The position numbers and the translations under genes are program-made. Under the pieces are notes generated by a model that had not been told where the DNA came from, made no database searches, and worked only from the letters and a program-made list of their open reading frames with translations. From positions 2,501,001 to 2,565,000 of the forward strand of contig NC_007775.1 in assembly GCF_000013205.1 (NCBI RefSeq): 64,000 nucleotides of DNA, written 5' to 3'. This DNA is from Synechococcus sp. JA-3-3Ab. GTDB taxonomy: Bacteria; Cyanobacteriota; Cyanobacteriia; Thermostichales; Thermostichaceae. Shown piece by piece: positions 27,172 through 62,264 of this stretch. How positions within the stretch are numbered: position 1 is the stretch's first letter; each line of letters opens with the position of its first letter.

Positions 27172-28896
27172 CTAGTCAATGCTCAATCCCTCGACCACCT
27201 GAGGCTGAGAACGTGGCCTGAGAGGGGCAGATTGGGCTACGCGATCCTGTCGTCGGTGGGGCTGAAAGTGATTTTGCCACAAGCCGAGGATATCAAGTGT
27301 TTCGCCACCATGCTGGGTGTAGCGCTGCCGTACTTTACACAGAACAGGGGTATTGACACACACGCCGGAGACAATCACCTGACCCTTGCTCAAAGCCGGC
27401 AATTCCTGTAACAAATCCCGTCCGGCAGCCTCAACACTGTGGCGCAGATTTTCTTGATCGGAAGGGTTGACAATTCGCATCAAAAATTGGCTCATGCATT
27501 GCGATAGAATGTCCGAGTCCAGCTTGCCGGGGCGTTGCGTGATTAGACCTACTCCTAAGCCAAACTTCCGCCCTTCGCTGAGAATGGTGCGCAACACCTG
27601 CTTGCAGCGGGAGGGCTCGTGGGCAGGGGCAAAGCGATGGGCCTCTTCCAACAAGATAAAAACAGGATAGGGCAGGTAATTTTCATCCCCCGGTTGGATC
27701 TTGCCTTTATGGGTGTTAATGCGGGCGTAATTGGCCTGGCGCAGGATGGCGGCGGCAATGACTTGCTGCTCTTCCTGGCTAATCTCGTGCATCTGCAAAA
27801 TGGTTACCTGCCCTGGCTCAAACAAATCCTTGGGGGCCAGGTGTTCCACATTGCTAAAGTAGGGAGAGCGATCGATCTGCTCTAGCTTCCACTCCAAAGC
27901 AGCGGCTGAGGATCCCCGGGATCCGTCCTCTGCCGAATCTTCTTCGTTGACGGTGTCGATCAGATCCCGAATTGTCCAACGTAGTGGATTGAACTGGGTA
28001 ACCTTGCGGAAAGCTTTCTCTAGGAAAGATTTCTGCCGGTCGGTGGTCTCTGGCAAGAGGGTAAGGATATCGAAAAAGTTGAGAGAAGACACGCGGATCT
28101 TGATTTCCTGTGGGGAGAGAACCTTAACCTTAGGGCGGTAGCCGTCTTCGCCCAAAAACTTGGGGTGGGACTGCATCTCTGCCAGTGTATGGTATTCCCC
28201 ATGGGGATCAAAAATGAGAACAGCAGCCCGGTTTTTGGGCAACATCAGCTCTTCAATCAAGACCCCCGCCGTGTAGGATTTTCCGGATCCCGTCCCCGCC
28301 AAAATAGCCAGATGGGTGCTAACCATTTCCTTGACATCCAGCACCACGGGCACCGCTCCCTCGTCGCGCAACAACAGGCTGCCCAAGTGAGCGCCCCCAA
28401 CGGCTGTTTCATCTCGTTTGTTCAAAATCGATTTCAGCAGACGATTGGAGGCCAAAAAGACTTTGGCACCGGGATCCGGAGGGCGACGGGGGTTAATAAA
28501 GCCCATGGCGCGGTGAAAATAGCCGATGACCTCGACGGTAACTGCGTAGATTTCCGGGTTGGGGTGGGTAAAGCCCACCAAAGCCACAATGGTGCTGGGA
28601 TCGATCTCGGTGTCGGCAAAGATGCGATCGGGAATGTGATCCAAGAGCTGGACTTGCCTGATCTTGCCGAGAATTTTCAGGGTTTGGGACTGGGTATCCT
28701 GAACCTCATAGTAGACAAAATCGCCTACTCTTACAGCTTGGGTATTGGAGGTGATAAAAACATACTGGTTGGAGGTTTCACCGGGGCCCTTGACAGTGCC
28801 GATTACTTCTGGGGCCTCTTCATCGGAGGAGAAGACAGCTTTTGGATAGTGTCCATTGTCAAGAGACTGGGCGATCCCTACAGTTTTTTTGGTCAT
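27172..28896 (-). CDS. herA: HerA-like hexameric DNA translocase/helicase
   Basis: A 574-residue ATPase of the FtsK-HerA superfamily. An N-terminal HAS-barrel-type region (EVIGTVKGPGETSNQYVFIT) leads into the RecA-like motor: Walker A LAGTGSGKSYTA at about 199-210, a FDPHGEYHTL motif, Walker B VFILLEEAHRFAP at about 412-424, and a GLGVGLITQRPGKLD sensor segment near the arginine-finger area. HerA forms a ring that pumps DNA into its partner nuclease NurA for strand resection. Its ATG overlaps the stop of the preceding gene (TGATG), and it is the last gene of the sbcD-sbcC-nurA-HAS-herA operon. Confidence 0.92.
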   Translation of the reverse strand: MTKKTVGIAQSLDNGHYPKAVFSSDEEAPEVIGTVKGPGETSNQYVFITSNTQAVRVGDFVYYEVQDTQSQTLKILGKIRQVQLLDHIPDRIFADTEIDPSTIVALVGFTHPNPEIYAVTVEVIGYFHRAMGFINPRRPPDPGAKVFLASNRLLKSILNKRDETAVGGAHLGSLLLRDEGAVPVVLDVKEMVSTHLAILAGTGSGKSYTAGVLIEELMLPKNRAAVLIFDPHGEYHTLAEMQSHPKFLGEDGYRPKVKVLSPQEIKIRVSSLNFFDILTLLPETTDRQKSFLEKAFRKVTQFNPLRWTIRDLIDTVNEEDSAEDGSRGSSAAALEWKLEQIDRSPYFSNVEHLAPKDLFEPGQVTILQMHEISQEEQQVIAAAILRQANYARINTHKGKIQPGDENYLPYPVFILLEEAHRFAPAHEPSRCKQVLRTILSEGRKFGLGVGLITQRPGKLDSDILSQCMSQFLMRIVNPSDQENLRHSVEAAGRDLLQELPALSKGQVIVSGVCVNTPVLCKVRQRYTQHGGETLDILGLWQNHFQPHRRQDRVAQSAPLRPRSQPQVVEGLSID

Positions 28897-29489
28897 CAGC
28901 GCATCGCTCCTACGGTCATTTTCCAGGCCAGTTCTTTGCTTAGAATTTGCAGGGCCCGCCGTTGAGCCGGATCGGAAAACATGGGTATGATATCATTCAA
29001 GACTTGATAAACAAGGTGGTCGGCAAAGTTGCCGCCGCTGCTCAAGAGCAATCCATAATACGAAAATTGGGTTTGACCTTGGGGATCTTGGTGAAAACGT
29101 AGGATTTCTTCTTGGCTCATGCGAAAAACGGGCGTGTTCACAGGCACCACCACGCGCGGGATCCCTTGCCGGCCACAGCCCCGCTCTTCGTCCAAAGCTC
29201 CGATGAGAACCACCGAAAGCAGCGTGCGCACCTCGTTTTGTAAATCGGGGGAAAAATAGGGATCCGGCTGGCTGGAGAGGCGCGGGCCGGAGTTGAGAAA
29301 GAGCGGGTTTACAATTTGGGTGTTATAGACCAGACCTACAGCCCAGTGCCGTTGATCATTCTCCAGCTTAACAAAGCTGCCAAAGCCATAGTCATCAGGA
29401 GAGGGAGGATTTTTGACTTCTAGGGCGTCATCCACCTGCACTACGTAGTCGCAGTGATTGTTGGAGCGAACCACCTTGCCCAATCTCAT
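28896..29489 (-). CDS. HAS-barrel-like protein of the HerA-NurA operon
   Basis: A 197-residue protein lying between nurA and herA, overlapping nurA by 4 bases and herA by one. It begins RLGKVVRSNNHCDYVVQVDD and goes on to GSFVKLENDQRHWAVGLVYN, which resembles the HAS barrel, the small beta-barrel normally found at the N-terminus of HerA and ATP synthase subunits. The rest is unfamiliar and more helical towards the end (DPAQRRALQILSKELAWKM). The tight coupling to nurA and herA suggests it is a subunit or regulator of their complex. No enzymatic motif is visible. Confidence 0.75.
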   Translation of the reverse strand: MRLGKVVRSNNHCDYVVQVDDALEVKNPPSPDDYGFGSFVKLENDQRHWAVGLVYNTQIVNPLFLNSGPRLSSQPDPYFSPDLQNEVRTLLSVVLIGALDEERGCGRQGIPRVVVPVNTPVFRMSQEEILRFHQDPQGQTQFSYYGLLLSSGGNFADHLVYQVLNDIIPMFSDPAQRRALQILSKELAWKMTVGAMR

Positions 29490-30679
29490 CGGACTCGCCT
29501 CCGCTGCAGTTTACTCACCGTTTTCCGAGATAACCTGAGGTTGAGCTTCTCGCGGCTTGCCCAATCTTGCATCAGGCGCAGGAAAAGGTTGCGATCCTCA
29601 TTGCGAATAACGGCTATTTGATCGGCTGTCTCTAACACATAGGGATAGCCTCTACCAATGATGACCTCGCAGCGCACCAGATCCACGACCCAGTCCAAAA
29701 GTCCTGCCTCGTAAACCCAAACCGGTATCTCCAGCCGGGCCGGAAAGTTGTCGTTGGTGCGCAAATAAACAAATCCCACTCGCTCTCGCATTTCTTGGTA
29801 AGAGTTGAGGATCCCATCTTGAGGGTTAAGGCTGCCGCCGCGAGCACAGATAAAAAAAGGGGTGCGCTCCCCCCACTCCAGCCACGGGCTGAGGAGTTGG
29901 GCATCGTGAAGCTGAGGAGCTTCAGGAAGATCGAAGCAATGCCGCAGCAATGTCACCAGATCTGAGGTATAGGTAGTGTCGATGTAGGCCACAACAGGGA
30001 TCTGGTTTTGCTCGCTGGCCCGCAGCACCTGGAGTAAACATTGTACGTAGAAATCTCGGCTTTCTGGCTCAAGGGCTTCCGCAAAGGTAGCCACCAGAGC
30101 CCCATCTAAAAAGGCCAACTTTCGGGATCCAGGCTGAGCTCCCCGGATATATTCCACCAGCTTTTCTGTTTCCATTTGGAAGCGACGCATGTTGACGACG
30201 CGCTCTTTGGGCTCGCCGCTGCTATCGGATCCCAAATCCTTTGGAGTCAGTACATCGACTTGAATATCTTTTTCGTACAGGCCTTGGGCACAGTGATGAT
30301 TCTCATACCAGCCGATCTGCACCAAGGCCACCGGAATTGACAGATCCTTGCTGGGATAGATTTGGGATCCATCTACTGCAAAGGTGGAAATATTTTTAAT
30401 AATCGACCTTGCCCATTCATCGCTTTCCTCATGGCTAGTCCATGCCTGTTCAAAAGGAACTGACCAACTGGAGTAAAGATCCCACTCTTGAGTAGGTAGA
30501 GCACCCGGAAAGTCCAAGGGCGCTATTTTTTCGGCAATCTCTGCGCTCGACCACTGGCACAATCTTTCCATGGCCTGCCGATATCCCTCTCTGCGCTCCG
30601 ATAGCCCTTGATCAAAAGTGACGAAAGCCTCCCGCTTTTGCTGCAATACTGCCAGAACCCGGTCAGCTCTAAATACCAT
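29486..30679 (-). CDS. nurA: NurA-type nuclease
   Basis: A 397-residue protein with the NurA pattern: FAVDGSQIYPS (about 100-110) with the first metal-binding Asp, LAFLDGALVATFAEAL (about 188-203) with the second, and IPVVAYIDTTYTSDL (about 227-241) with a third acidic residue. NurA is a dimeric Mn-dependent nuclease that sits under the HerA ring and degrades the 5' strand at DNA ends. It overlaps the upstream rad50-like gene by 11 bases and the downstream HAS-barrel gene by 4. The protein is within the usual length for bacterial NurA. Context strongly supports the call. Confidence 0.88.
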   Translation of the reverse strand: MVFRADRVLAVLQQKREAFVTFDQGLSERREGYRQAMERLCQWSSAEIAEKIAPLDFPGALPTQEWDLYSSWSVPFEQAWTSHEESDEWARSIIKNISTFAVDGSQIYPSKDLSIPVALVQIGWYENHHCAQGLYEKDIQVDVLTPKDLGSDSSGEPKERVVNMRRFQMETEKLVEYIRGAQPGSRKLAFLDGALVATFAEALEPESRDFYVQCLLQVLRASEQNQIPVVAYIDTTYTSDLVTLLRHCFDLPEAPQLHDAQLLSPWLEWGERTPFFICARGGSLNPQDGILNSYQEMRERVGFVYLRTNDNFPARLEIPVWVYEAGLLDWVVDLVRCEVIIGRGYPYVLETADQIAVIRNEDRNLFLRLMQDWASREKLNLRLSRKTVSKLQRRRVR

Positions 30680-33600
30680 AGGTGGGATCCCTCCTCATCT
30701 GGCCAGAGCCAGCGTGCCTCTCCACCCGAATGATGTTCTCCGTTACTTGCTCAAAGGTATCGTCGTGGCTGATCACAAATAGCTGCTCAAAAGAGCGCAA
30801 ATTGGTAATGGACTCGGCCAATCGCTGTCGGCGCTGGGCGTCCATGTTGGTGGTGGGCTCGTCGAAGAAGGCAATATCCAACTGTCCTAACACCTTGAGC
30901 AAGGCTAGGCGAACTGCCAGAGCTGCCGACATCTGCTCTCCTCCAGAAAGGCTGGCAAAACGTCGTTTGGGGCCGCCTCCCTCTTGAACGCGGATCTCGT
31001 AGTCGGCCTCCCAGGTGAGGGCAACATTGGGGCGGTTGAGGATTTCCCGGAAGAGGTGATCGGCAATGTTGTTGATCTGCTGTAGATAGTATTGGGTAAT
31101 TTGAGGGCCAGCCTTTTTGTAGGTATCTCGGCTAAACTTAATGAAGCGATGCAGACGCTCTTTCTCGATTCGTTGCGTCTCGACTTGTTTTAAGGTTTCT
31201 CTCACCCGCTCCAGTTGCTGTAACCTTTCCTGGATTTTCTGTAGTTGAGGGGCAAGGCTTTCCAGGCGAGCTTGAGCCTCGGCCTTTTGAATTTCGGTGG
31301 CCTGCAAAAGGGAGCGCAGACGTTGGTGCTCCTGAGGCTGATAGAGGGAAGCCAAAGGATCCCGCTGTGCCCGCAATTGGGACAGTTGGGTTTGCAATGC
31401 TTGCTGTTGCGCCTTCAGTTCACTGAGCTTCCGTTCTCGTTGGGGGAGCAGTTTGGCAATAGGCTCCAGACCTAGATATTGCTCGTGATCCGCTCGGTAG
31501 TGTTCGCGCTGTTCTTGCAGGGATCCCAGCTCTCGATCCAGGTGTTCGGTTTGCAGCAGCGCTTCCTCGAGGGGGCGGAGTGCTGCCTCCAAATCCTGGA
31601 TTTGCTGTAGGCAACCTGCCTGCGTTTGCAGGTACTGTCTTTCCAGCTTGAGCTCCGCTTTCAGCCACTCAGCCCGGCTTCTCGGATCCCCCAGGGACTT
31701 CAAGGTTTCGGCGGCTTTTACAATTTGGGCTTGCAGGTAATCTTTGGATCCCTCTATTTTCTCCCAGCGATCAATTTGGGCTTGTTTTTCCTGCTTAGCT
31801 TGCTGGATCTGTTCTAGAGCCAACTGAGCTGTTTGCAGTTCATCTTTTCGTTGTGGCAAACTTTGGACAAGTGGTTGCATACGGATAACGGTTTCATAGC
31901 TGTTGCGATGGCAACTCTGCTCCTCCCGTAAAGCGGCAATTCTCTCGTCTAGATCGGCAAGGGGCTGAAGCTGCTGCTCTAGGGCTTGTATCTGTTGTTG
32001 AAGTTGCTGGATGCTGGCTACAACTTGCTGGTACTCTTGCTCAACTCTCGGCTTATTGTTGAGCTCCTTTTCCAGGCGCTGGATTTGCCCCCTGGGATCC
32101 CCCAGTGCCTGCAGCGCTTGGCCAATTTCCTGTTGTTGCCGAAGAAAGTCTGGCTCTGCCTCGAGGCTCCACTGAAGATCCTCAATTTTGCTCTGGCGTT
32201 CGTTTTGCCATTGCAGCAACTGTTGAATTTGAGCTTCTAACTCGGGAATCTGCGCCGTTAAGCCCAGCAGGGGCTGCAAAGTCTTGAGTTGCTCCTGGAT
32301 ATCAGCCAGTTGCTGGCGTAGCTGAGGCTCGCAAGTTTGGGGGGAAAGATCCTGTAGGATTTGTTGGATGGATTGCAGTAACTGTTGGCTGAGGGCTGAA
32401 GACTGGGCCAGAACTTGCGGGATCCGCTGCCATAGAGGTTGGAGTTGCGGATAACTCTGTTGGCAAGCGGCCAGCTCCTCCACAAGAGTTTGAATGCTGC
32501 GGTTGTGCTGGGCCAGTTGGTGAGAGCCCTGCTCGAAAAGGGCTTGGAGTTCCCGCTGAAATTGCCGCGCCGCGGCTAGGCGGCTGAGCTGAGTTTGCAG
32601 TCGCTCTTGTTGAGCCTCCAGGAGGGGAATCTTGGCTACGTGCTCTCGATCGGCCTGTCGCTGTCGAAGCTGCAGCCGCAACTGTTCCAACTGGGCCCGG
32701 CCCTGTTCCTGTTCTGTTTCTCTCTGTCTTAGCTCTAGGCGCAGGGCCTGAAAAGAGGCCAACTTCTGGCCAATTTGAGAGTACCGTTGTTCCAGGACGG
32801 TTTGCTTTTCGCAGAGCGTTTGCAGGTGTAGCTTTTCCTCCTCGATTTTCTGGAAGAGTTGGAGCTGCTGTCGATACTCAGATTCTCGCAGTTGGAGTTG
32901 GTGGAGCTGCTGCCGTAAAGTTTCCCGCTGAGCTGTCAAGGTCTGCCGTGTTCGTCGCAACGCCTCTTGCTCTGCCACCCAAGCCTCCAACTCCAGATAA
33001 CGCCTGTAGGCCGATTCGTGCTGTTGACAGATGGCCTGCGCCTGTTCAGCCTCTTGGACGCGGCTTTGCAGCAGTTGACAGCGCCCGGCGTGGGCTGACC
33101 ATTCTCCCTGAAGCTGCTCCCATTCGCGGTGCAGTTGGAGCAAGGTGTCGAGCTGCTGAGCCCAATGGCTTTGCCGGCGCTCTAGCTCCTCTTGGGCTTG
33201 AATTTGGGGAGCCAGCTCCTCTAGCTCCTGCTTGCAGCGCTGTTGTTGGCTGAGTTTTTCCTGCAGCCTCGCCAGTTGGTTTTCGAGGTTCTGCTTTTGC
33301 GAGAGCAGGGCCTCCCGCCGCTTCAGCCACTCCAGGCGCTGCTGCCGTTGCTTTTCCAGCTCCCGCAACCGATCTTCTATGGCCAAAAAGCGCTGAGATC
33401 CCTCTTGGTGGTGCTGTTGTTGTGCCTGCGCTCGCTGGGCCTCTGCCCACAGCTTTTCGGCTTGCTCAAGGGCTACTGCCAGCAGGGATCCCTCTTGCTC
33501 CAGTTGAGCAATTTGCCGGTCGAGCGTTTGGATTTGCTCAAGCAGCTTCTCCAGCCGCTCCAGCTCCAGCTTCACCTCGGCCAAGGTATGGGTATGGTGG

Positions 33601-34265
33601 CTTAAGCGCTCCTGCCAGTGGCTCAGTTCTTGCTCGATTCTCTGCTGCTCTACTTGCAGCGGATCCCAGTCTTGCATCTGTTGATGGAGCAGCTCAATTT
33701 GATGCTTGACGGCCAGAACTTGCGCCTCGCTGTATTTTTCAACTGCCAGCAGATCCTTTGCAACTTGCTGGTACTCTTCTACCTTCAAGATGCGGTCGAA
33801 AACTTCTTTCCGCTCCCGACTGGTTTTGAGAAAATCTGCTGTGAAAGTGCCCTGGGGCACCCCAATCGTTGTAGCAAAGAGCCGCGCCAAATCAGTACCG
33901 GCGGGCACACCCAAATGTTGCCTCAGCCACGCTAGCACATCTGCCTTGCGCTCGTAATCTAGGCGCTGCTTCAATTGCGGATCGAAGAGGCGATATCCCT
34001 GCCTGACACTGCGGCGAACGTCGTAGGTGCGCTGATCCCACTGGGAGATAAACTGGACAGTAGCCACCGCATCGCTGGCCCCTGTGCGGATGAGTTCTTC
34101 TTGGTTGTAGGGGCAGTAGTCAAACAAAACCCAGGCGATGGCCTCTAGAATGCTGGTTTTGCCTGCTCCATTTTCTCCACAAATGGCGTTGATACCGGGC
34201 TCAAACTCGAAGAAGGCGTCCTCATGAGACTTGAAGTTCTGCAGAGCCAAAGAGAGGATCCGCAT
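30669..34265 (-). CDS. sbcC: Rad50/SbcC-type SMC-like ATPase without a CxxC zinc hook
   Basis: A 1198-residue DNA-repair ATPase. The N-terminal Walker A is GENGAGKTSILEAI (about 30-43), then come two very long Gln/Glu/Leu-rich coiled coils (about 170-1050), and near the C-terminus the signature LSGGEQMSAALAVRLALL (from about 1106), Walker B FFDEPTTNMD and the H-loop ISHDD. Rad50/SbcC normally has a CxxC zinc hook at the apex of the coils. The few cysteines here are scattered and none are spaced C-x-x-C. Partnership with the adjacent Mre11/SbcD nuclease, two bases upstream, is clear. Confidence 0.93.
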   Translation of the reverse strand: MRILSLALQNFKSHEDAFFEFEPGINAICGENGAGKTSILEAIAWVLFDYCPYNQEELIRTGASDAVATVQFISQWDQRTYDVRRSVRQGYRLFDPQLKQRLDYERKADVLAWLRQHLGVPAGTDLARLFATTIGVPQGTFTADFLKTSRERKEVFDRILKVEEYQQVAKDLLAVEKYSEAQVLAVKHQIELLHQQMQDWDPLQVEQQRIEQELSHWQERLSHHTHTLAEVKLELERLEKLLEQIQTLDRQIAQLEQEGSLLAVALEQAEKLWAEAQRAQAQQQHHQEGSQRFLAIEDRLRELEKQRQQRLEWLKRREALLSQKQNLENQLARLQEKLSQQQRCKQELEELAPQIQAQEELERRQSHWAQQLDTLLQLHREWEQLQGEWSAHAGRCQLLQSRVQEAEQAQAICQQHESAYRRYLELEAWVAEQEALRRTRQTLTAQRETLRQQLHQLQLRESEYRQQLQLFQKIEEEKLHLQTLCEKQTVLEQRYSQIGQKLASFQALRLELRQRETEQEQGRAQLEQLRLQLRQRQADREHVAKIPLLEAQQERLQTQLSRLAAARQFQRELQALFEQGSHQLAQHNRSIQTLVEELAACQQSYPQLQPLWQRIPQVLAQSSALSQQLLQSIQQILQDLSPQTCEPQLRQQLADIQEQLKTLQPLLGLTAQIPELEAQIQQLLQWQNERQSKIEDLQWSLEAEPDFLRQQQEIGQALQALGDPRGQIQRLEKELNNKPRVEQEYQQVVASIQQLQQQIQALEQQLQPLADLDERIAALREEQSCHRNSYETVIRMQPLVQSLPQRKDELQTAQLALEQIQQAKQEKQAQIDRWEKIEGSKDYLQAQIVKAAETLKSLGDPRSRAEWLKAELKLERQYLQTQAGCLQQIQDLEAALRPLEEALLQTEHLDRELGSLQEQREHYRADHEQYLGLEPIAKLLPQRERKLSELKAQQQALQTQLSQLRAQRDPLASLYQPQEHQRLRSLLQATEIQKAEAQARLESLAPQLQKIQERLQQLERVRETLKQVETQRIEKERLHRFIKFSRDTYKKAGPQITQYYLQQINNIADHLFREILNRPNVALTWEADYEIRVQEGGGPKRRFASLSGGEQMSAALAVRLALLKVLGQLDIAFFDEPTTNMDAQRRQRLAESITNLRSFEQLFVISHDDTFEQVTENIIRVERHAGSGQMRRDPTYGI

Positions 34266-34267
34266 GG

Positions 34268-35536
34268 TCAGTCTTCTTCCCCCAGAAAGGCGCCGCTCAG
34301 GTGAGCGTACACTTCCGCTTCGCCTTGCTCATCTAAGATTTTCTCTTTGAGATCTAAGAGTAACCGTGCCAGCTCTTCGCTGCGCTTGCGGTAGTGGGCA
34401 TGGCTGCTCAGCAGATCCCTGTAGATTTTCTCTTCAATTTGCAGCCTGCGCCCTTCTTCTTCGAGGGAAAGAGCAGCCGACCCGATCTCCAAAGTAGTGG
34501 CTTCGAAGCGGAAGAGAACCAGCAGGGCACCGGTAAGCTGCTGAATCTGCTGCTGCAGGGCGCGGCTATCCAACTCGTGCTTGGCAAAGCCCACCTGCCC
34601 CGCCAGCCGAAACTCCACCATTGGCGCTGGCCCACCTTCGGGAAGGTCGGATCCCTTGGCCAAGGCAATTGCGGCTGCAGCAATCTCTTCGGGCGTTTCC
34701 CGGCCCTTGGCCTCAAGAGAGATCCGTCGGTGAGGCCGCCGGTAGTAGTCCTGCACCAGCTCAGCCTGAGGCGGGCCCTCTCCCCAGCGGACGCGGTAGG
34801 CTCCCCGCGGAAAGTCCCACTCGGCAGTACTGTTAGCCTCCAGGGATCCCGGATTGAAGATCCAGCCTTCTTCTGTATAGCTTTTGTGGATATGTCCCAA
34901 GGCTAAATAGCCCACCCCTGCCTCCCGCAAAGGCAGCAGATCCCGGTAGCGCAAGGCGCCCTGGTAGCGAGCAATTTGGCCTTCCAGGCCGTGGTGGAAC
35001 ATGAGCACCACCCGCTCAGGGCCAGGGGGCAACCGGCGAATGGCCGCCGCCAACTGCTCAATCGACTTGGGGGCCGCCGACCCATACCACTGGGATCCGA
35101 TCACCCGCACCCCACAGGGCAGATCCAGATAGCCCCCCCGCCCACCTGACCAGGGGCGCAGCTCTAAACCCTCCTCGCCTGCTTCCGGCTCCAGCAGGAT
35201 CAGGTCGCCGTGATCGGCCAGGTAGCGCAGCCAACTGGTCTTGACACCGTAGGGGCGGCTGTCGTGGTTGCCCTCAATGGCCAAGACGGGGATCCCGGCC
35301 TGCTTCAGCTCCCGCAAGACAATCTGGGCTTGGTTGAGGACACCGGGCTGAATTTGCCGGTGCTCAAACAGATCCCCGGCAATGAGGACAAAATCCACCG
35401 GGTTCTGGATGGCATGGCGGCGCACCACATCCCGAAAGGCCAAAAAGAAATCTTTGCTCCGCTCCGGGCTGTTGTAGCGGTCGTAGCCCAGATGCACATC
35501 GGCCAGGTGCAAAAAGGTGCAGGTGGAAGTGGCCAT
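34268..35536 (-). CDS. sbcD: Mre11/SbcD-type DNA exonuclease
   Basis: About 422 residues with all metallophosphoesterase motifs of Mre11/SbcD: FLHLADVHLGYDR, FVLIAGDLFEHRQIQPG, LAIEGNHDSRPYG, VVLMFHHGLEG and YLALGHIHKSY. These provide the Asp, His and Asn ligands of the two-metal site. With the Rad50-like ATPase it would open and trim blocked DNA ends. A C-terminal helical part (EEKIYRDLLSSHAHYRKRSEELARLLLD) is the expected Rad50-binding region. ATG at 35536 (MATSTCTFLHL) is preferred over an in-frame TTG 14 codons upstream. It is the first gene of the five-gene operon. Confidence 0.93.
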   Translation of the reverse strand: MATSTCTFLHLADVHLGYDRYNSPERSKDFFLAFRDVVRRHAIQNPVDFVLIAGDLFEHRQIQPGVLNQAQIVLRELKQAGIPVLAIEGNHDSRPYGVKTSWLRYLADHGDLILLEPEAGEEGLELRPWSGGRGGYLDLPCGVRVIGSQWYGSAAPKSIEQLAAAIRRLPPGPERVVLMFHHGLEGQIARYQGALRYRDLLPLREAGVGYLALGHIHKSYTEEGWIFNPGSLEANSTAEWDFPRGAYRVRWGEGPPQAELVQDYYRRPHRRISLEAKGRETPEEIAAAAIALAKGSDLPEGGPAPMVEFRLAGQVGFAKHELDSRALQQQIQQLTGALLVLFRFEATTLEIGSAALSLEEEGRRLQIEEKIYRDLLSSHAHYRKRSEELARLLLDLKEKILDEQGEAEVYAHLSGAFLGEED

Positions 35537-35728
35537 CGCCCGAACCTGCCAGCAAATTGCCCACAGTTTAGCAGACAAACCTCAGTGCTCAACTAGATAT
35601 AGGGATCCCTTCCCGGCCATTTGCGGCTTTGCTCGGGTTGCCACCCCTAGAGCTAGGCGCCGCCCCGCCGCGCTGCCTGTTGCCCAGTTCCAACCTTTCA
35701 TGGGCACAGCTTGGGTTGGTGAAAGTTC

Positions 35729-56477: not shown

Positions 56478-57124
56478 CTTTCTGACTTCTCAAGATCCCC
56501 CCGAAGGGAAAACACTGCTAAAACCTTTGCCGCTCTCGGAATGCCGGGAGCGGTTTCCAATTTCTAGGGATCCCTCTAAGGGATAACTTCAGGGGATCCA
56601 GATCATCCCTGGAACACAGCAGGGGGAGTTTCCAAAGTTTCCAATTCCTAGGGATCCCCCCGAAGGGGGAACAATATTGCTCACCGTAGGTGGCATGGAA
56701 GATCCAAGGACGTTTCCAATTTCTAGGGATCCCCCCGAAGGGGGAACCCGATCTTCTTGGATCGGATTCCGGCTGGGAGTCTCAAAGGGGTTTCCAATTT
56801 CTAGGGATCCCCCCGAAGGGGGAACTTGCAGTGATGCGCAAGGCGCGCCAAGCTGCCAAAGATGTTTCCAATTTCTAGGGATCCCCCCGAAGGGGGAACG
56901 TGTAAAATGAATCGCGCTTTCCTCCGTCTGTTGGTCAAGCGTGTTTCCAATTTCTAGGGATCCCCCCGAAGGGGGAACCTGAGAATACTCCAGGGGGAGC
57001 AACCCCTAGCCTAATCGTTTCCAATTTCTAGGGATCCCCCCGAAGGGGGAACTTCGTACCTCGTTTAAGGGAGTTTGTGCCCATGAACGTTTCCAATTTC
57101 TAGGGATCCCCCCGAAGGGGGAAC
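56478..57124 (-). CRISPR. CRISPR array, distal part: nine repeats (two decayed)
   Basis: 36-base repeats starting GTTTCCAATTTCTAGGG and ending CGAAGGGGGAAC on the plus strand. Intact copies start at 56712, 56790, 56864, 56943, 57017 and 57089; the one at 56637 has one mismatch (ATTCC for ATTTC). A decayed 35-base copy lies at 56553-56587 and a more decayed one at 56478-56513. Spacers are 36-43 bases, except one of 49 whose last nine bases duplicate the repeat start. Decay at the left end marks the trailer. The minus-strand repeat ends in TTGGAAAC, the type III 5'-handle form, so transcription is leftward. Its left half carries CCCCC-UUC-GGGGG, a stable hairpin. Confidence 0.96.
56530..56553. 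terminator. Possible bidirectional hairpin between rtcB and the array
   Basis: CCGCTCTCGG and CCGGGAGCGG pair across AATG. The stem lies in the 39-base space between the two decayed repeats, and 59 bases after the rtcB stop. T-rich DNA flanks it on the plus strand (TTTCCAATTT). It could stop rtcB transcription and CRISPR transcription, which converge here; it could also simply be a spacer. Confidence 0.4.
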
Positions 57125-57325
57125 TACTACAACGACGATGGCAGTGTCAAAGTTGAGGGGGGGGAATGTGATCAGTGGTAATCACTTTGTGCAGACCACC
57201 AGCAGTCAAGGGACGACCATCGGGCGGGATCGCAGGGGCAACCACTGGCTACACCATTTTGTCCAATGGCATCGTTTGCACTGGCAGGGGCAGAACCCGC
57301 ACTTGTATCATTTCGCCCAATGTGC
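57125..57325. other. 201 bases between the last distal repeat and the dioxygenase gene
   Basis: Starts directly after the repeat ending at 57124 with spacer-like sequence. No repeat follows, and no convincing gene is seen. Short open frames exist on the plus strand but read into the 3' end of the dioxygenase gene and resemble nothing known to me. It may be the downstream flank brought in with that gene. Confidence 0.4.
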
Positions 57326-58192
57326 CTATTTACGCCGTACCCAGCCGTTGACCGTAAACCTACTATCGGCAAACTGCCGTGAGGGACAAGTCACGGGTAA
57401 AACTTCGTGCATCAGATAGCTGGGAAAGAAAATGATAGTGTTGTTGGCAGGAACATAGGTTTTATAGGTGTCGGCTTTGACATACATATTGTTTCGCACT
57501 TCAGAGTCGTAGATCAGCAGTTCCCCCCCAGAAAACTGCTTGGGTTCTCGGTAGAAGTAATAGACATAGGTCAGTTCCCTTTCTTTGGCATCAGGACTGC
57601 CGTTGTCATTGTGCACTTTGTAATAATTGCCGTGGTTGTGCGCTGTCATTTGACATTCGATGTAGGCGATGGGAAATGGCTCCATTTTTAGGCTTTTGAG
57701 CACTTGGGGGATTAGCATTTGCACATAGTGGAGAATCACCCCTGAAAACTCAGGGAAGTCATACAGCACCCATGAACGGCGGTATTCACTGTCATCCGCT
57801 GAGTTTCGGGAAGGGACAAACCGCCCTTCGTTGGCGATCGCATATTCTAGTAACTGTTGGTTTTTGTCCCGCGGCAAAAAGTTATCCACCCGTGCATAGA
57901 CCGCAGGCTGTTTTTGGGGCGCGGTGGTGGGGGTGTGGACATTGATAGCCTTGTTAGGAGTGATAGACCAAAGCCTGATCCCCTCTTGCTCGTCAACTAC
58001 ACAACAGCGGAAGTTGCGCCACGGAAATTCATAGGCGAGGGGTTGTTCCCGCAGAATTGCCAAGCGGGACTCTGGTAAACCTAAAACCTGCCCCAGTTCC
58101 TCCGTGGTGAGCCAATACCCCCTCTCGGCAATCTCTTGTACTGCCTGCAGTTGGCGCATTAAATCTGTAACTTTTTCCCAACCTTCTGGCAT
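57326..58192 (-). CDS. 2-oxoglutarate/Fe(II)-dependent dioxygenase inside the CRISPR array
   Basis: About 288 residues. The C-terminal 190 residues form a prolyl-4-hydroxylase-like dioxygenase: YYKVHNDNGSPDAKE (metal His and Asp), ELTYVYYFYREPKQFSGGEL, NTIIFFPSYLMHEVLPV (second His) and RFTVNGWVRR (2-oxoglutarate Arg). The N-terminal 100 residues contain helices (ERGYWLTTEELGQVLGLPE), like a winged-helix-type module, and a DEQEGIRLWSI segment. The ATG at 58192 is chosen because of GGGGGG just upstream; 58216 is the alternative. It lies between repeats at 57089-57124 and 58271-58306, on the same strand as the array. The substrate is unknown. Confidence 0.82.
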   Translation of the reverse strand: MPEGWEKVTDLMRQLQAVQEIAERGYWLTTEELGQVLGLPESRLAILREQPLAYEFPWRNFRCCVVDEQEGIRLWSITPNKAINVHTPTTAPQKQPAVYARVDNFLPRDKNQQLLEYAIANEGRFVPSRNSADDSEYRRSWVLYDFPEFSGVILHYVQMLIPQVLKSLKMEPFPIAYIECQMTAHNHGNYYKVHNDNGSPDAKERELTYVYYFYREPKQFSGGELLIYDSEVRNNMYVKADTYKTYVPANNTIIFFPSYLMHEVLPVTCPSRQFADSRFTVNGWVRRK

Positions 58193-58270
58193 AGCTACCC
58201 CCCTGCTCTCTGCCATGCTGACCAAAATCTCGCCATCTGCTCAGCTGTGCCCACAGTGATCCTAAGTCCT

Positions 58271-58455
58271 GTTTCCAATTTCTAGGGATCCCCCCGAAGG
58301 GGGAACCAAATGGGCGGTGATTTCGACGGTGACCGCGTAAGCGTGTTTCCAATTTCTAGGGATCCCCCCGAAGGGGGAACGCTTTGGTTGGATGACAGAA
58401 ATGATTCCGGGGCCTTATCGTTTCCAATTTCTAGGGATCCCCCCGAAGGGGGAAC
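58271..58455 (-). CRISPR. CRISPR array, leader-proximal part: three repeats
   Basis: Three perfect 36-base repeats at 58271-58306, 58345-58380 and 58420-58455 in the same orientation as the distal part, with spacers of 38 and 39 bases. All three match the distal consensus. Being intact and next to cas2, this is the young end, with the leader to its right. Together with the distal part the array has twelve repeats, separated by the dioxygenase gene. Confidence 0.97.
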
Positions 58456-58706: not shown

Positions 58707-58985
58707 CTAGACAACGATCGAGTGGGGGGGTGCAGTTAAGGGGGGCCCACCCCAGATTTCCACTTGGTCAAGGGCGTGGCTGGTGAGGGGATAGAAGCGG
58801 ACGCTGTCCTCATCGGGCTTGACCCTTTTCCGGAGCCGTAGCTTGAGCTCCTCGAACTTGTCCTTGTCGAGGACACACTCGAACACGCTGTATTGCACGC
58901 GCTTGCCGTAGCCTTCTAGCAGGTCGGCAATTTTCTTGCGGCGCTTATCACAAGGGGTGTCGTAGGTAACGACATAAAGAAACAT
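58707..58985 (-). CDS. cas2: CRISPR-associated endoribonuclease/adaptation protein
   Basis: A 92-residue ferredoxin-fold protein that pairs with Cas1 to insert new spacers. The start MFLYVVTYDTPCDKRRKKIADLL carries the conserved Asp, then YGKRVQYSVFECVLD and VRFYPLTSHAL follow, all typical. Its ATG overlaps the stop of cas1 (TGATG), so the two are coupled. Confidence 0.95.
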   Translation of the reverse strand: MFLYVVTYDTPCDKRRKKIADLLEGYGKRVQYSVFECVLDKDKFEELKLRLRKRVKPDEDSVRFYPLTSHALDQVEIWGGPPLTAPPHSIVV

Positions 58986-59974
58986 CAGCGAATCCGGTAA
59001 GGCTGATACAGGTCTTGAGGATTATAGACAGAATGCTTAAATTTCTTAACCTGCTGCGTCAGCAAATCCCAGCGGGGTTGATCCCCATCGGGGGTTTGGA
59101 TGGATCCCTCCATTCTCTGGAGAAAAGCTTTGAGATACTTCTTTCTGCCAGCATCGCTGAGAAAACAGCCCCCATCTCGATACTCGAAGTCTTCTTGGAT
59201 ATCCATAACACCGCTGTTGACCAGCCACAGTACCAGTGAGTCCACAATAGGCGCTCGGAACTCTTCCAGCAAATCGGAAACCAAAGCAGCGTGGCGTTCG
59301 CTGCTGGCATGTAGGCAACCTTGATAGGGATCCAAATCTTGCAGCTCAATTAAGGTTAATAGGTGGTTCCAGAGCACCATGTAGCCAAAGCTGAGCATGG
59401 CATTCACTGGATTGGTGGGCGGCTGTCGGGTGCGCTTGATCAAAACAAATCCTTTTTGTTGTAAGCAATTGCCCAATTCGGGAAAATACAAAGCTGCGCC
59501 GATCCCTTCAATGCCTCGCAATTGATCCAGCGAAGTAGCCTGCAGAGCTTGAGCGGCCAAGTGTTCCAGGCTGCGCAGGGTTAGATCCCTGGTTTCGCTG
59601 GGGCGCTGCCTAAGTTGTCGCATCAACAGCACGCGGCCATTGAGGAGCTTAGCTCGCACTATTTAGGCTGCTGTTTGCAGTCTCCATGCTTCAGGGAGCG
59701 CCTGTTGCCAATGGGCCAGGCGGCGGTAGCCCCTTTCAATGGGAATGAGGCGACCGTAGCAATAGCCGAGCCGGGAGAGGTAGGCAATGGGGATATTGCG
59801 CTTCAAGCACTCCCTCACAACATCGGTAGTCACCTGAGAGCGGCCAAAGATTAAAATTTGCTCCAGCAAGGGCAGAGGCATCTCTTGCAAGAGCGACTCG
59901 CCCAAATGAACCAGCACAAACTCTTGCCTGAGGCTTAGCCTGCACCCTTGCTGGGAAACATACAAGGTTCGCAT
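58985..59974 (-). pseudogene. cas1: CRISPR adaptation integrase with an in-frame stop codon
   Basis: Two open stretches in one frame make up a complete Cas1 of about 330 codons. The N-terminal 103 residues (MRTLYVSQQGCRLSLRQEF... to AWRLQTAA) end at a TAA (59663-59665). The next codons in the same frame continue IVRAKLLNGRVLLMRQL to the normal C-terminus. The catalytic regions are in the second part: LRGIEGIGAALYF (Glu), YQGCLHASSERHAALVSDLL (His, Asp/Glu). One base change from AAA, CAA or GAA would create the stop. The C-terminal part could start at GTG 59659 but has no ribosome site. Inactive adaptation, readthrough or a sequencing error are all possible. Confidence 0.88.
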
Positions 59975-60305: not shown

Positions 60306-62264
60306 CTATCTCAAGGGCCAGATTACTTGAAAATCATCAGCATCTTTCTTGAGCTCCTCAAGATACTTTTTCCTAGGATCTGCCGTTGCCCCAAAAACGG
60401 TAACCACTTGGTAATCACCCAAATCGGCAATCCAAACCGGAGAGGGCAGAGCACCTCCCTGTACACCCCCGCACAAGAATTTGTCGTACCGGCCTTCATC
60501 TTGTCGGCCTAAGCGATGCAAAGTTGCCAGGGCATAGGGTTTGTTGAAATCTTCCTCGCCGCTGCAGACTACGATCCTGCAGTTGGCATCCACCGCTTGC
60601 GGCCATTTATCCCTCTGAACCTGGCCAGCACTTCTTGGGCTATCGGGGTTAATGGCCTGCTTGGTTAGAGTCTTGAGAGCGTCAAAGAAGTTGCCCAGGC
60701 GCTTTTGGAAAAGCTTCTGAAACCCGGCCACCGACTCCGCCAGCTTCCAAAAGGCATCCTCCGACCTGGGAATTAGGGTAGAGCCGCGCCACCAGGGAGC
60801 CCGCTCCCGGTTCTGGCGGGAGTAGCAGGGTCTTCTAGCTCCTTGACCCACACCTCCCAGATGGAACATCATCCAGGTGAGGTTAGTAAAGAGCTTTTCC
60901 ACCGCCTCTTGATCTTCCTGGGAAGCATAGTTTTGACACTCGCCAGAAAGACTTAAGATGAGGATCCCTTCCTGTTGGCCTGCGGCTTCTCCTCGCTGAT
61001 TGGGCTCCGGCCGAGAGACTTTGCCGTTCAGCAAATCCACATGGATCCAGCCGTGTTTTTGCTGGGGAGTGATGGCCCCAAAAAGTTGCCCTTCCCACTC
61101 CTGCACCTGATCGACCGGCAAAACTCCCAGGGCAAAGGTGCGGAACCAATAGCGCAGCATATTCTTAAAGGCTACGGGCCGCACTTCGGCGATGGATCGG
61201 TTGTCGTAGCGATTCTTATCGGGCCTCCAGTTGACTACCTGCCGCCCGTGAATGAGTTGGCCTTTTAGCTCAAAGGGCAGGCGCAAGAATTCTCCTTGGC
61301 TCTTGTCCAGTGATTTCCCTAAGGGGATCAGCCGACCGTAGCCGGTATTCACCTGGGATCCCACCCCTTGCTCCAGCCCTTGGATCAGCCACTCTTTGAC
61401 TTGATCCAGCATCTCATCGGTGCAGCCGGGGCCTTTGCGCAGGCCAATTAAAAAAGTGGCTTGCTTGAGAGAAAAGAACAAGTTAGGGTTAGGCGAGTAG
61501 TCAAGATTTTTTCCATTCCATTTCCAGATACTATTGGCAATATCTACAGCTAGACCCCCCGTTTTAGAATTATCGGGATCCTCTCGCCGTTGGGGCCGAG
61601 TGGGTACCGGGTAGGCATCCAAAAAGATAACCTTGCCGGCCCTGTCTTTTTCGTCAGCTTGTAGGTGCCCAAACCAAGGAGCTACGGCTTTGTCTGCTTG
61701 CTCCCAAGATAAATTGCGCTCCTGCATCAGCTCTCGAATGGCCTGGGAGCGGGCCACGCCGCACAGGGTGGAGCTGGGAATGTAAGGGATCCCTAAGGGA
61801 TCGAAAGCGGGGAGCAACATGCTCTCTGGACCCTTGGCCCCACCGACTCGAATTCGCCAGGGACAAGTAACCTGAAAGGTGTCGCTGGCAATGCGTTGGG
61901 TGCGCTCATTCAAAACTTTCAGGCGGGCTCCAAGGTTGATCGTTGTTTCCACTTGGTGCGCCAGCTCCGCTTTGGTGCCGTCTTTAGAAGCATCAAGCGG
62001 CGCTCGCATCCAGCGCAGATATTCAATAAAGCCAGCGGTGGGATCCGGCCTGGGCGTGGGATCCAAGGGGTGACCCAGCCAAGGCGAGGGCGGAGGATTG
62101 TTGCCTCCTCCACCGCGCGGCTGGTTTCCCCCTCCATTGCCTCCTCTAGGAGAATTAGGGCCCCGATTTTCCTGAGGCGGCCGGCGGCTGGGATCCCCTG
62201 GCCTGGGGGGACGAGGAAGCGGCTGAGGAGCGTTGCCAGGACGAGTAGGGCGATTGCCAGTCAT
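60306..62264 (-). CDS. cmr6: RAMP protein, apparent Cmr6-Cmr1 fusion with disordered N-terminus
   Basis: A 652-residue protein. Residues 1-75 are Pro/Gly/Asn/Arg-rich and probably disordered. Residues about 105-325 look like Cmr6: GIPYIPSSTLCGVAR (162-169 core), KVIFLDAYPV (211-220) and GVGSQVNTGYGRLIP (300-314). Residues about 330-650 look like Cmr1: VRPVAFKNMLRYWFRTF (361-377), WEGQLFGAITP and MMFHLGGVGQGARR (465-478). In the usual type III-B complex these are separate subunits, Cmr1 and Cmr6 capping the 3' end of the crRNA. It follows the nuclease-like gene by 29 bases. Confidence is high for RAMP family and moderate for the two-domain reading. Confidence 0.82.
   Translation of the reverse strand: MTGNRPTRPGNAPQPLPRPPRPGDPSRRPPQENRGPNSPRGGNGGGNQPRGGGGNNPPPSPWLGHPLDPTPRPDPTAGFIEYLRWMRAPLDASKDGTKAELAHQVETTINLGARLKVLNERTQRIASDTFQVTCPWRIRVGGAKGPESMLLPAFDPLGIPYIPSSTLCGVARSQAIRELMQERNLSWEQADKAVAPWFGHLQADEKDRAGKVIFLDAYPVPTRPQRREDPDNSKTGGLAVDIANSIWKWNGKNLDYSPNPNLFFSLKQATFLIGLRKGPGCTDEMLDQVKEWLIQGLEQGVGSQVNTGYGRLIPLGKSLDKSQGEFLRLPFELKGQLIHGRQVVNWRPDKNRYDNRSIAEVRPVAFKNMLRYWFRTFALGVLPVDQVQEWEGQLFGAITPQQKHGWIHVDLLNGKVSRPEPNQRGEAAGQQEGILILSLSGECQNYASQEDQEAVEKLFTNLTWMMFHLGGVGQGARRPCYSRQNRERAPWWRGSTLIPRSEDAFWKLAESVAGFQKLFQKRLGNFFDALKTLTKQAINPDSPRSAGQVQRDKWPQAVDANCRIVVCSGEEDFNKPYALATLHRLGRQDEGRYDKFLCGGVQGGALPSPVWIADLGDYQVVTVFGATADPRKKYLEELKKDADDFQVIWPLR

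Follow-up and report, generated by a model that had tools for sequence, protein, structure and literature searches.

The genes mre11, rad50, herA and nurA are clustered in archaea, as described for Sulfolobus, Pyrococcus and Thermococcus (PMC2288612, PMC12977600). Mre11 binds HerA in Sulfolobus (PMC2288612), and solved HerA-NurA structures show a NurA dimer held by the HAS domains of the HerA ring (PMC9960219, PMC12977600). Whether HerA-NurA resects ends or destroys foreign DNA is disputed, and work on it has dealt with sets of two or four proteins. Among bacteria, nurA-herA pairs are known in Deinococcus-Thermus, and in Oceanithermus profundus sbcD and sbcC lie downstream of nurA-hepA (PMC5448004). 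Here we describe a locus of Synechococcus sp. JA-3-3Ab in which genes of these four families and a gene for a small protein, P2, are joined in one array; it lies in a stretch of 64,000 nucleotides (the window; NC_007775.1, positions 2,501,001 to 2,565,000) of the complete 2,932,766-base genome. A first-pass annotation of this DNA had stated that the four genes are usually apart or missing in bacteria, which needs qualifying in view of the Deinococcus-Thermus pairs and the Oceanithermus arrangement. We read the locus, with moderate confidence, as encoding a five-component archaeal-type DNA-end-processing machine.

The five minus-strand open reading frames (ORFs) follow the order mre11, rad50, nurA, P2 and herA, and are divergent from psaA-psaB. 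The junctions measured +2 (mre11/rad50), -11 (rad50/nurA), -4 (nurA/P2) and -1 bases (P2/herA), in agreement with the overlapping or nearly touching one-strand genes, with gaps from +2 to -11, that had been reported earlier. Two other genomes of the window's genus gave [+2, -11, -4, -1] and [+1, -11, -4, -1]. The five genes were contiguous in 6/6 genomes of this genus in the class survey described below, and four haloarchaeal plasmids carry the same order, which excludes a chance array. The five genes are presumably co-transcribed.

Pfam placed the four named proteins in their proposed families, with E-values of 1e-55 for the HerA central domain (DUF87), 2e-55 for NurA (over the cut-off), 1e-24 for SMC_N and 6e-14 for Metallophos. 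NCBIfam matches, which fall below the full-length equivalog cut-offs, gave 235 bits for the archaeal-type Rad50 model vs 109 for SbcC, and 109 bits for the Pyrococcus-type Mre11 model vs 45 for SbcD. By Pfam, NCBIfam and coordinates, all four families are present and adjacent at the locus. Among solved structures, the nearest were HerA of T. kodakarensis (E = 3e-44), with S. solfataricus HerA also closest, Mre11 of P. furiosus (E = 8e-39; E. coli SbcD, 5e-10) and Rad50 of M. jannaschii. NurA matched no solved structure. As judged from these matches, HerA, Mre11 and Rad50 are closer to archaeal than to bacterial relatives, which bears out the archaeal style that the first-pass annotation had seen.

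In Mre11, D27, H29, D69, N104, H105, H195, H229 and H231 (numbered from the TTG at 35578) were invariant in 15 orthologues, and in NurA, D103, E170, D192, D234 and D259 were invariant in 13. HerA showed the conserved motifs GxGKS (P-loop), LEEAH and ITQRPGK. The Rad50 alignment contained the ABC ATPase motifs, with GENGAGKTS as Walker A at the N-terminus and, close to the C-terminus, LSGGEQ as the signature and DEPTTNMD as Walker B. The catalytic residues of these proteins are likely intact, their matching to biochemically tested residues having been judged by eye.

The same genome also encodes an ordinary set of these proteins, with NurA at 1122351, HerA at 160520, SbcC at 723937 and SbcD at 117817, the last nearest to T. 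maritima SbcD. The general and operon NurA types were separated at 100/100 in a tree. These results indicate that the five genes (hereafter the module) are an addition to the ordinary set. The general NurA gene of another cyanobacterium (G060:C1:4035180-4036698) reads as overlapping pieces with five in-frame stops and may be broken or mis-assembled.

P2 matched no model in Pfam (including its HAS-barrel model), NCBIfam or PADLOC. Its AlphaFold2 model (predicted local distance difference test [pLDDT] 81; predicted template modelling [pTM] score 0.77) was usable except at residues 60-86. In a Foldseek comparison with the PDB, all 33 matches at E<=0.001 were HerA-type, and chains of F1-ATPase, the other owner of the HAS barrel, ranked below. 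The TM-score of this predicted model, normalised by P2, was moderate at about 0.40-0.45. Because of this moderate score, and because the target coordinates were not shown, a HAS barrel like the N-terminal barrel of HerA is the best reading of the predicted fold and not a proof. The label "HAS-barrel protein" given to P2 earlier thus draws its support from the predicted fold and none from the family libraries. No relatives of P2 were found in viral contigs or phages, so a phage origin was rejected; a scan of the viral contigs for HerA returned two distant matches only. A stand-alone HAS barrel, as P2 would be, whose gene sits between nurA and herA and shares their inheritance is best explained as an adaptor at the HerA-NurA face.

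The inheritance of the module was assessed in an even sample of 185 Cyanobacteriia genomes (class survey) and in 194 genomes of the phylum (phylum survey). In the class survey, module HerA, NurA, Mre11 and Rad50 were each present in 106/185 genomes (about 57%), the same genomes being listed for all four. P2 was found in 104/106 carriers and 0/79 non-carriers, and the two carriers lacking it were drafts of 720 and about 1200 contigs. In the phylum survey, 14 genomes had P2 and module HerA; Mre11 and Rad50 turned up in all of these and in one more (G013), and module NurA was undetected in one of the 14 (G029). The nominal hypergeometric p for co-occurrence was 8e-51, a value that assumes independent genomes, which these are not; as to independent losses, the tree of general NurA called for 3-4 changes, at least 1 of which its well-supported branches make unavoidable. 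As separate observations, G013, which lies outside Cyanobacteriia, carries module Mre11 and Rad50 (L079 2313-5325), the latter read as two overlapping ORFs, and neither P2 nor module HerA was detected there; this is either an incomplete draft or a partial module. In another genome, module HerA (G280:C1:1520501-1522155) is in two pieces, one with an in-frame TAG, and is possibly frameshifted or decaying, the other four genes being kept.

Among the sampled cyanobacteria, the one-operon layout was confined to the window's genus, and most carriers checked had dispersed genes. In 17 of 19 single- or few-contig carriers outside that genus, no compared gene pair lay within 10 kb (coordinates from earlier scans; Rad50 position left out for seven of the 19); of the other two, G205 had mre11 and rad50 as convergent neighbours and G226 had two clusters. 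In a scan of named genomes that covered up to 10 kb on each side of P2, the best 80 of 192 P2 loci were all cyanobacterial, and 78 of these 80 had no module HerA or NurA within the DNA examined, the two exceptions being relatives of the window. As the genes are scattered in most carriers, linkage cannot explain their shared inheritance, and shared function can. P2 is thus probably a fifth component of the machine on the evidence of its distribution. Near-exact co-occurrence of unlinked genes likewise supports the earlier idea of one complex, and the dispersal means that the gene order is not commonplace in cyanobacteria. The suggested link to thermophily was rejected, as the carriers, by record name, include mesophilic and polar organisms (Shackletoniella antarctica, Phormidesmis priestleyi, Nodosilinea and Acaryochloris). 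The same data bear on whether P2 is a decayed, functionless HerA remnant kept by proximity, which would reduce the finding to a four-gene archaeal operon. The one part of HerA that P2 resembles in fold is the N-terminal barrel, and P2 has no known function; however, its retention mostly away from herA, its 27 positions invariant in 14 orthologues of the phylum and its presence in Archaea at 27-30% identity make this explanation very improbable.

The archaeal relatives emerged from a tblastn search of plasmids with P2, which retrieved four haloarchaeal plasmids with E-values down to 1e-18, from Natrinema zhouii, Halobaculum marinum, archaeon DL31 and Halorussus salilacus. All four encode a metallophosphoesterase, an SMC ATPase, NurA, P2 and HerA on one strand in the order of the window; the Halorussus cassette spans the record start, and its NurA was seen by tblastn only. 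The cassette HerA was about 40% identical to the window's HerA. No description of this five-gene unit was found in the open-access literature, subscription papers being mostly outside that search. Two of the cassettes, those of Natrinema zhouii and DL31, have a complete Shango system directly upstream. Between these two plasmids, the Shango genes were 85-92% identical and the adjoining cassettes 42-55% (L200 6830-12880, L201 1741-7791), which points to separate histories at a shared site and suggests exchange of the cassette at a defence site. For the same reason, Shango is doubtful as a functional partner.

In the HerA tree, the window's HerA fell inside the Cyanobacteriia clade (100/99), non-photosynthetic relatives joined this clade at 85/71, and the haloarchaeal sequences formed a clade of their own (100/99) outside it; the P2 tree agreed. 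A recent import of the five-gene operon from an archaeon into the hot-spring Synechococcus would account for the archaeal-type proteins and for an operon that is intact only in the window's genus and, among the records read, on haloarchaeal plasmids. However, the position of the window's proteins in both trees argues against it, as does a hookless Rad50 that is common to other Cyanobacteriia and not to haloarchaea, so that we regard such an import as extremely improbable. Two genomes, one of the same order as the window but of another family (G226) and one outside Cyanobacteriia (G021), have exactly two clusters, mre11-rad50 and nurA-P2-herA. These could have been re-joined in the window's genus to give the same protein machine, with the haloarchaeal likeness due to convergence. 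We consider this fairly unlikely, since the identical haloarchaeal order makes an ancestral five-gene operon that was repeatedly broken up the simplest explanation. The five-gene order would accordingly have been retained from a shared ancestor.

The Rad50 of the module differs at its apex across these groups. The three haloarchaeal cassette Rad50s read carry CPTC, and three from non-photosynthetic relatives carry C-x6-C (e.g. CPILNVGC). The CxxC motif was absent from 14/14 module Rad50 orthologues of the phylum, the window included, and 11/11 Cyanobacteriia module Rad50s read had no paired cysteine at the apex (neither CxxC nor C-x6-C). The window's protein, lacking the CxxC zinc hook, is therefore a hookless Rad50-like protein and not a typical Rad50. 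These alignments indicate that the zinc hook was lost from module Rad50 in Cyanobacteriia. The apex fragment (535-725) was predicted by AlphaFold2 as four helices (pLDDT 88, pTM 0.55), and with the hook lost, apex dimerisation, if any, should use this helical element. The gradation from a CPTC hook through C-x6-C to no hook offers a natural experiment on the purpose of the zinc hook. The window's Rad50 is also long, with 1198 residues vs about 920 in most Cyanobacteriia orthologues. About 137 residues of its C-terminal arm look duplicated (repeat score 157 vs at most 85 in 200 shuffles), with a weaker signal in the N-terminal arm, and the orthologue in G226 is long too.

What is known of the biochemistry of these families makes end processing the likeliest function of the module. 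Mre11-Rad50 would recognise a DNA end and clip it, the HerA hexamer would then pump the duplex into the NurA dimer, and NurA would degrade what it is fed. P2, as a stand-alone HAS barrel like the NurA-docking one of HerA, might sit at the HerA-NurA face and serve there as an adaptor or a cap, or connect that face with Mre11-Rad50. More specifically, the Mre11-Rad50-NurA-P2-HerA machine may be a distinct five-subunit system common to Cyanobacteria and haloarchaeal plasmids, in which P2 is an obligate HAS-barrel subunit that controls the docking of NurA (or Mre11-Rad50) on the HerA ring and the Cyanobacteriia Rad50 has a hookless, helical-bundle apex; this fuller proposal is tentative, its chances falling a little short of even. 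RecC was absent from 40/40 carriers tested and also from 38/40 non-carriers (the two exceptions in one family, f20). Its absence does not discriminate between the two groups; the module therefore does not simply replace RecBCD.

Four results weigh against this interpretation. T. kodakarensis HerA-NurA cut or degraded both strands; the authors of that study are doubtful of end resection and suggest that the role is antiviral (PMC12977600). A defence system adjoins half of the haloarchaeal cassettes. No family among those listed was mixed for carriers and non-carriers, and the co-occurrence may therefore rest on few independent losses or events. A profile comparison of P2 with HerA (hhalign) was negative with 14 and with 96 sequences, so that derivation of P2 from HerA by profile was rejected and their kinship is claimed at the level of fold only.

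The main rival to end processing is the destruction of foreign DNA, in which the module would find free or foreign ends of phage or plasmid DNA, destroy the duplex by HerA feeding NurA, and have become settled and vertically inherited in cyanobacteria. Besides the T. kodakarensis activity, this is favoured by the plasmid location of the haloarchaeal cassettes, by the Shango system directly upstream of two of them with its sign of exchange beside a shared neighbour, and by HerA homologues that drive SIR2 and DUF4297 defence complexes (PDB entry names). On the other hand, unlike typical defence islands, the cyanobacterial genes are single-copy and stable within families, lie mostly dispersed and track organism groups in the HerA tree, and the Shango co-location is limited to 2/4 plasmids. 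Of the window's five proteins, only HerA and the SMC-like ATPase matched PADLOC models, giving no complete described system and no match for P2, NurA or Mre11, and the neighbours of the window's operon included nothing suggestive of phage defence. Taken together, we regard a defence role as unlikely, although a serious contender.

The existence of a conserved fifth component, whose place is probably the HerA-NurA face, would alter the way in which these complexes are reconstituted. In cyanobacteria such as Thermosynechococcus the genes are scattered yet inherited together, so that their roles could be told apart by deleting them one at a time, free of polar effects, and the dispute over HerA-NurA function becomes testable in a bacterium.

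The features of the locus are listed in Table 1. Promoter and terminator scans were uninformative, and the single promoter-like match is a candidate by consensus only. Elsewhere in the window, a CRISPR array (CRISPR-DR58 repeats; 56537-58455) is split by about 1.1 kb that contains a 299-residue ORF (57326-58225, minus strand), which matches 2OG-Fe(II) oxygenases and not a transposase. After the interrupted array come an ORF that resembles Cas1 (58985-59659) and one with a RAMP domain (60306-62264).

Table 1. Features of the five-gene locus, with positions in the window.
Feature	Position	Strand	Basis or remark
Mre11-like nuclease gene, first of operon	34268..35536	-	Pfam Metallophos; ATG at 35536, mechanical TTG start at 35578
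Rad50-like ATPase gene, 1198 aa, no CxxC zinc hook	30669..34265	-	Pfam SMC_N, archaeal Rad50 model
rad50 part encoding coiled-coil apex, residues 535-725	32091..32663	-	AlphaFold2: four helices at zinc-hook place; no paired cysteines
NurA nuclease gene, module type, distinct from general cyanobacterial NurA	29486..30679	-	Pfam NurA
P2, 197 aa, stand-alone HAS-barrel-like protein, proposed fifth subunit	28896..29489	-	Predicted fold, co-occurrence, haloarchaeal homologues
HerA hexameric ATPase/translocase gene, last of operon	27172..28896	-	Pfam DUF87, motifs
Intergenic region, operon to divergent psaA	35537..35850	.	One weak promoter-like match, minus strand, 35837-35809

Compared with known systems, the SbcCD of the same genome are distant homologues of module Rad50 and Mre11; they differ in the CPLC hook of SbcC, in the affinity of SbcD to the T. 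maritima protein and in being unlinked to the operon. The HerA-based defence complexes (SIR2-HerA/Nezha, DUF4297-HerA and TdpAB) likewise combine a HerA-type motor with a partner effector, and the predicted P2 fold matches their HerA barrels, but their effectors are other ones and the window's HerA scores lower against them than against archaeal HerA. The Deinococcus-Thermus NurA-HerA (PMC9960219, PMC5448004) is a bacterial pair of the same kind, which in Oceanithermus also adjoins SbcD and SbcC, although in a different order; P2 is unmentioned in both papers, and by E-value among solved structures archaeal HerA comes nearest to the window's HerA. The archaeal cluster contains the same four families, and its HerA, Mre11 and Rad50 are the closest among solved structures. 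The module adds P2, which is undescribed in PMC2288612 and PMC12977600, and differs in its hookless Cyanobacteriia Rad50 and in the dispersal of its genes in most cyanobacterial carriers checked. The haloarchaeal cassette shares all five genes, their order and strand, together with the similarity in HerA, and differs in its plasmid location, the CPTC hook of its Rad50 and the Shango system that adjoins 2/4 copies.

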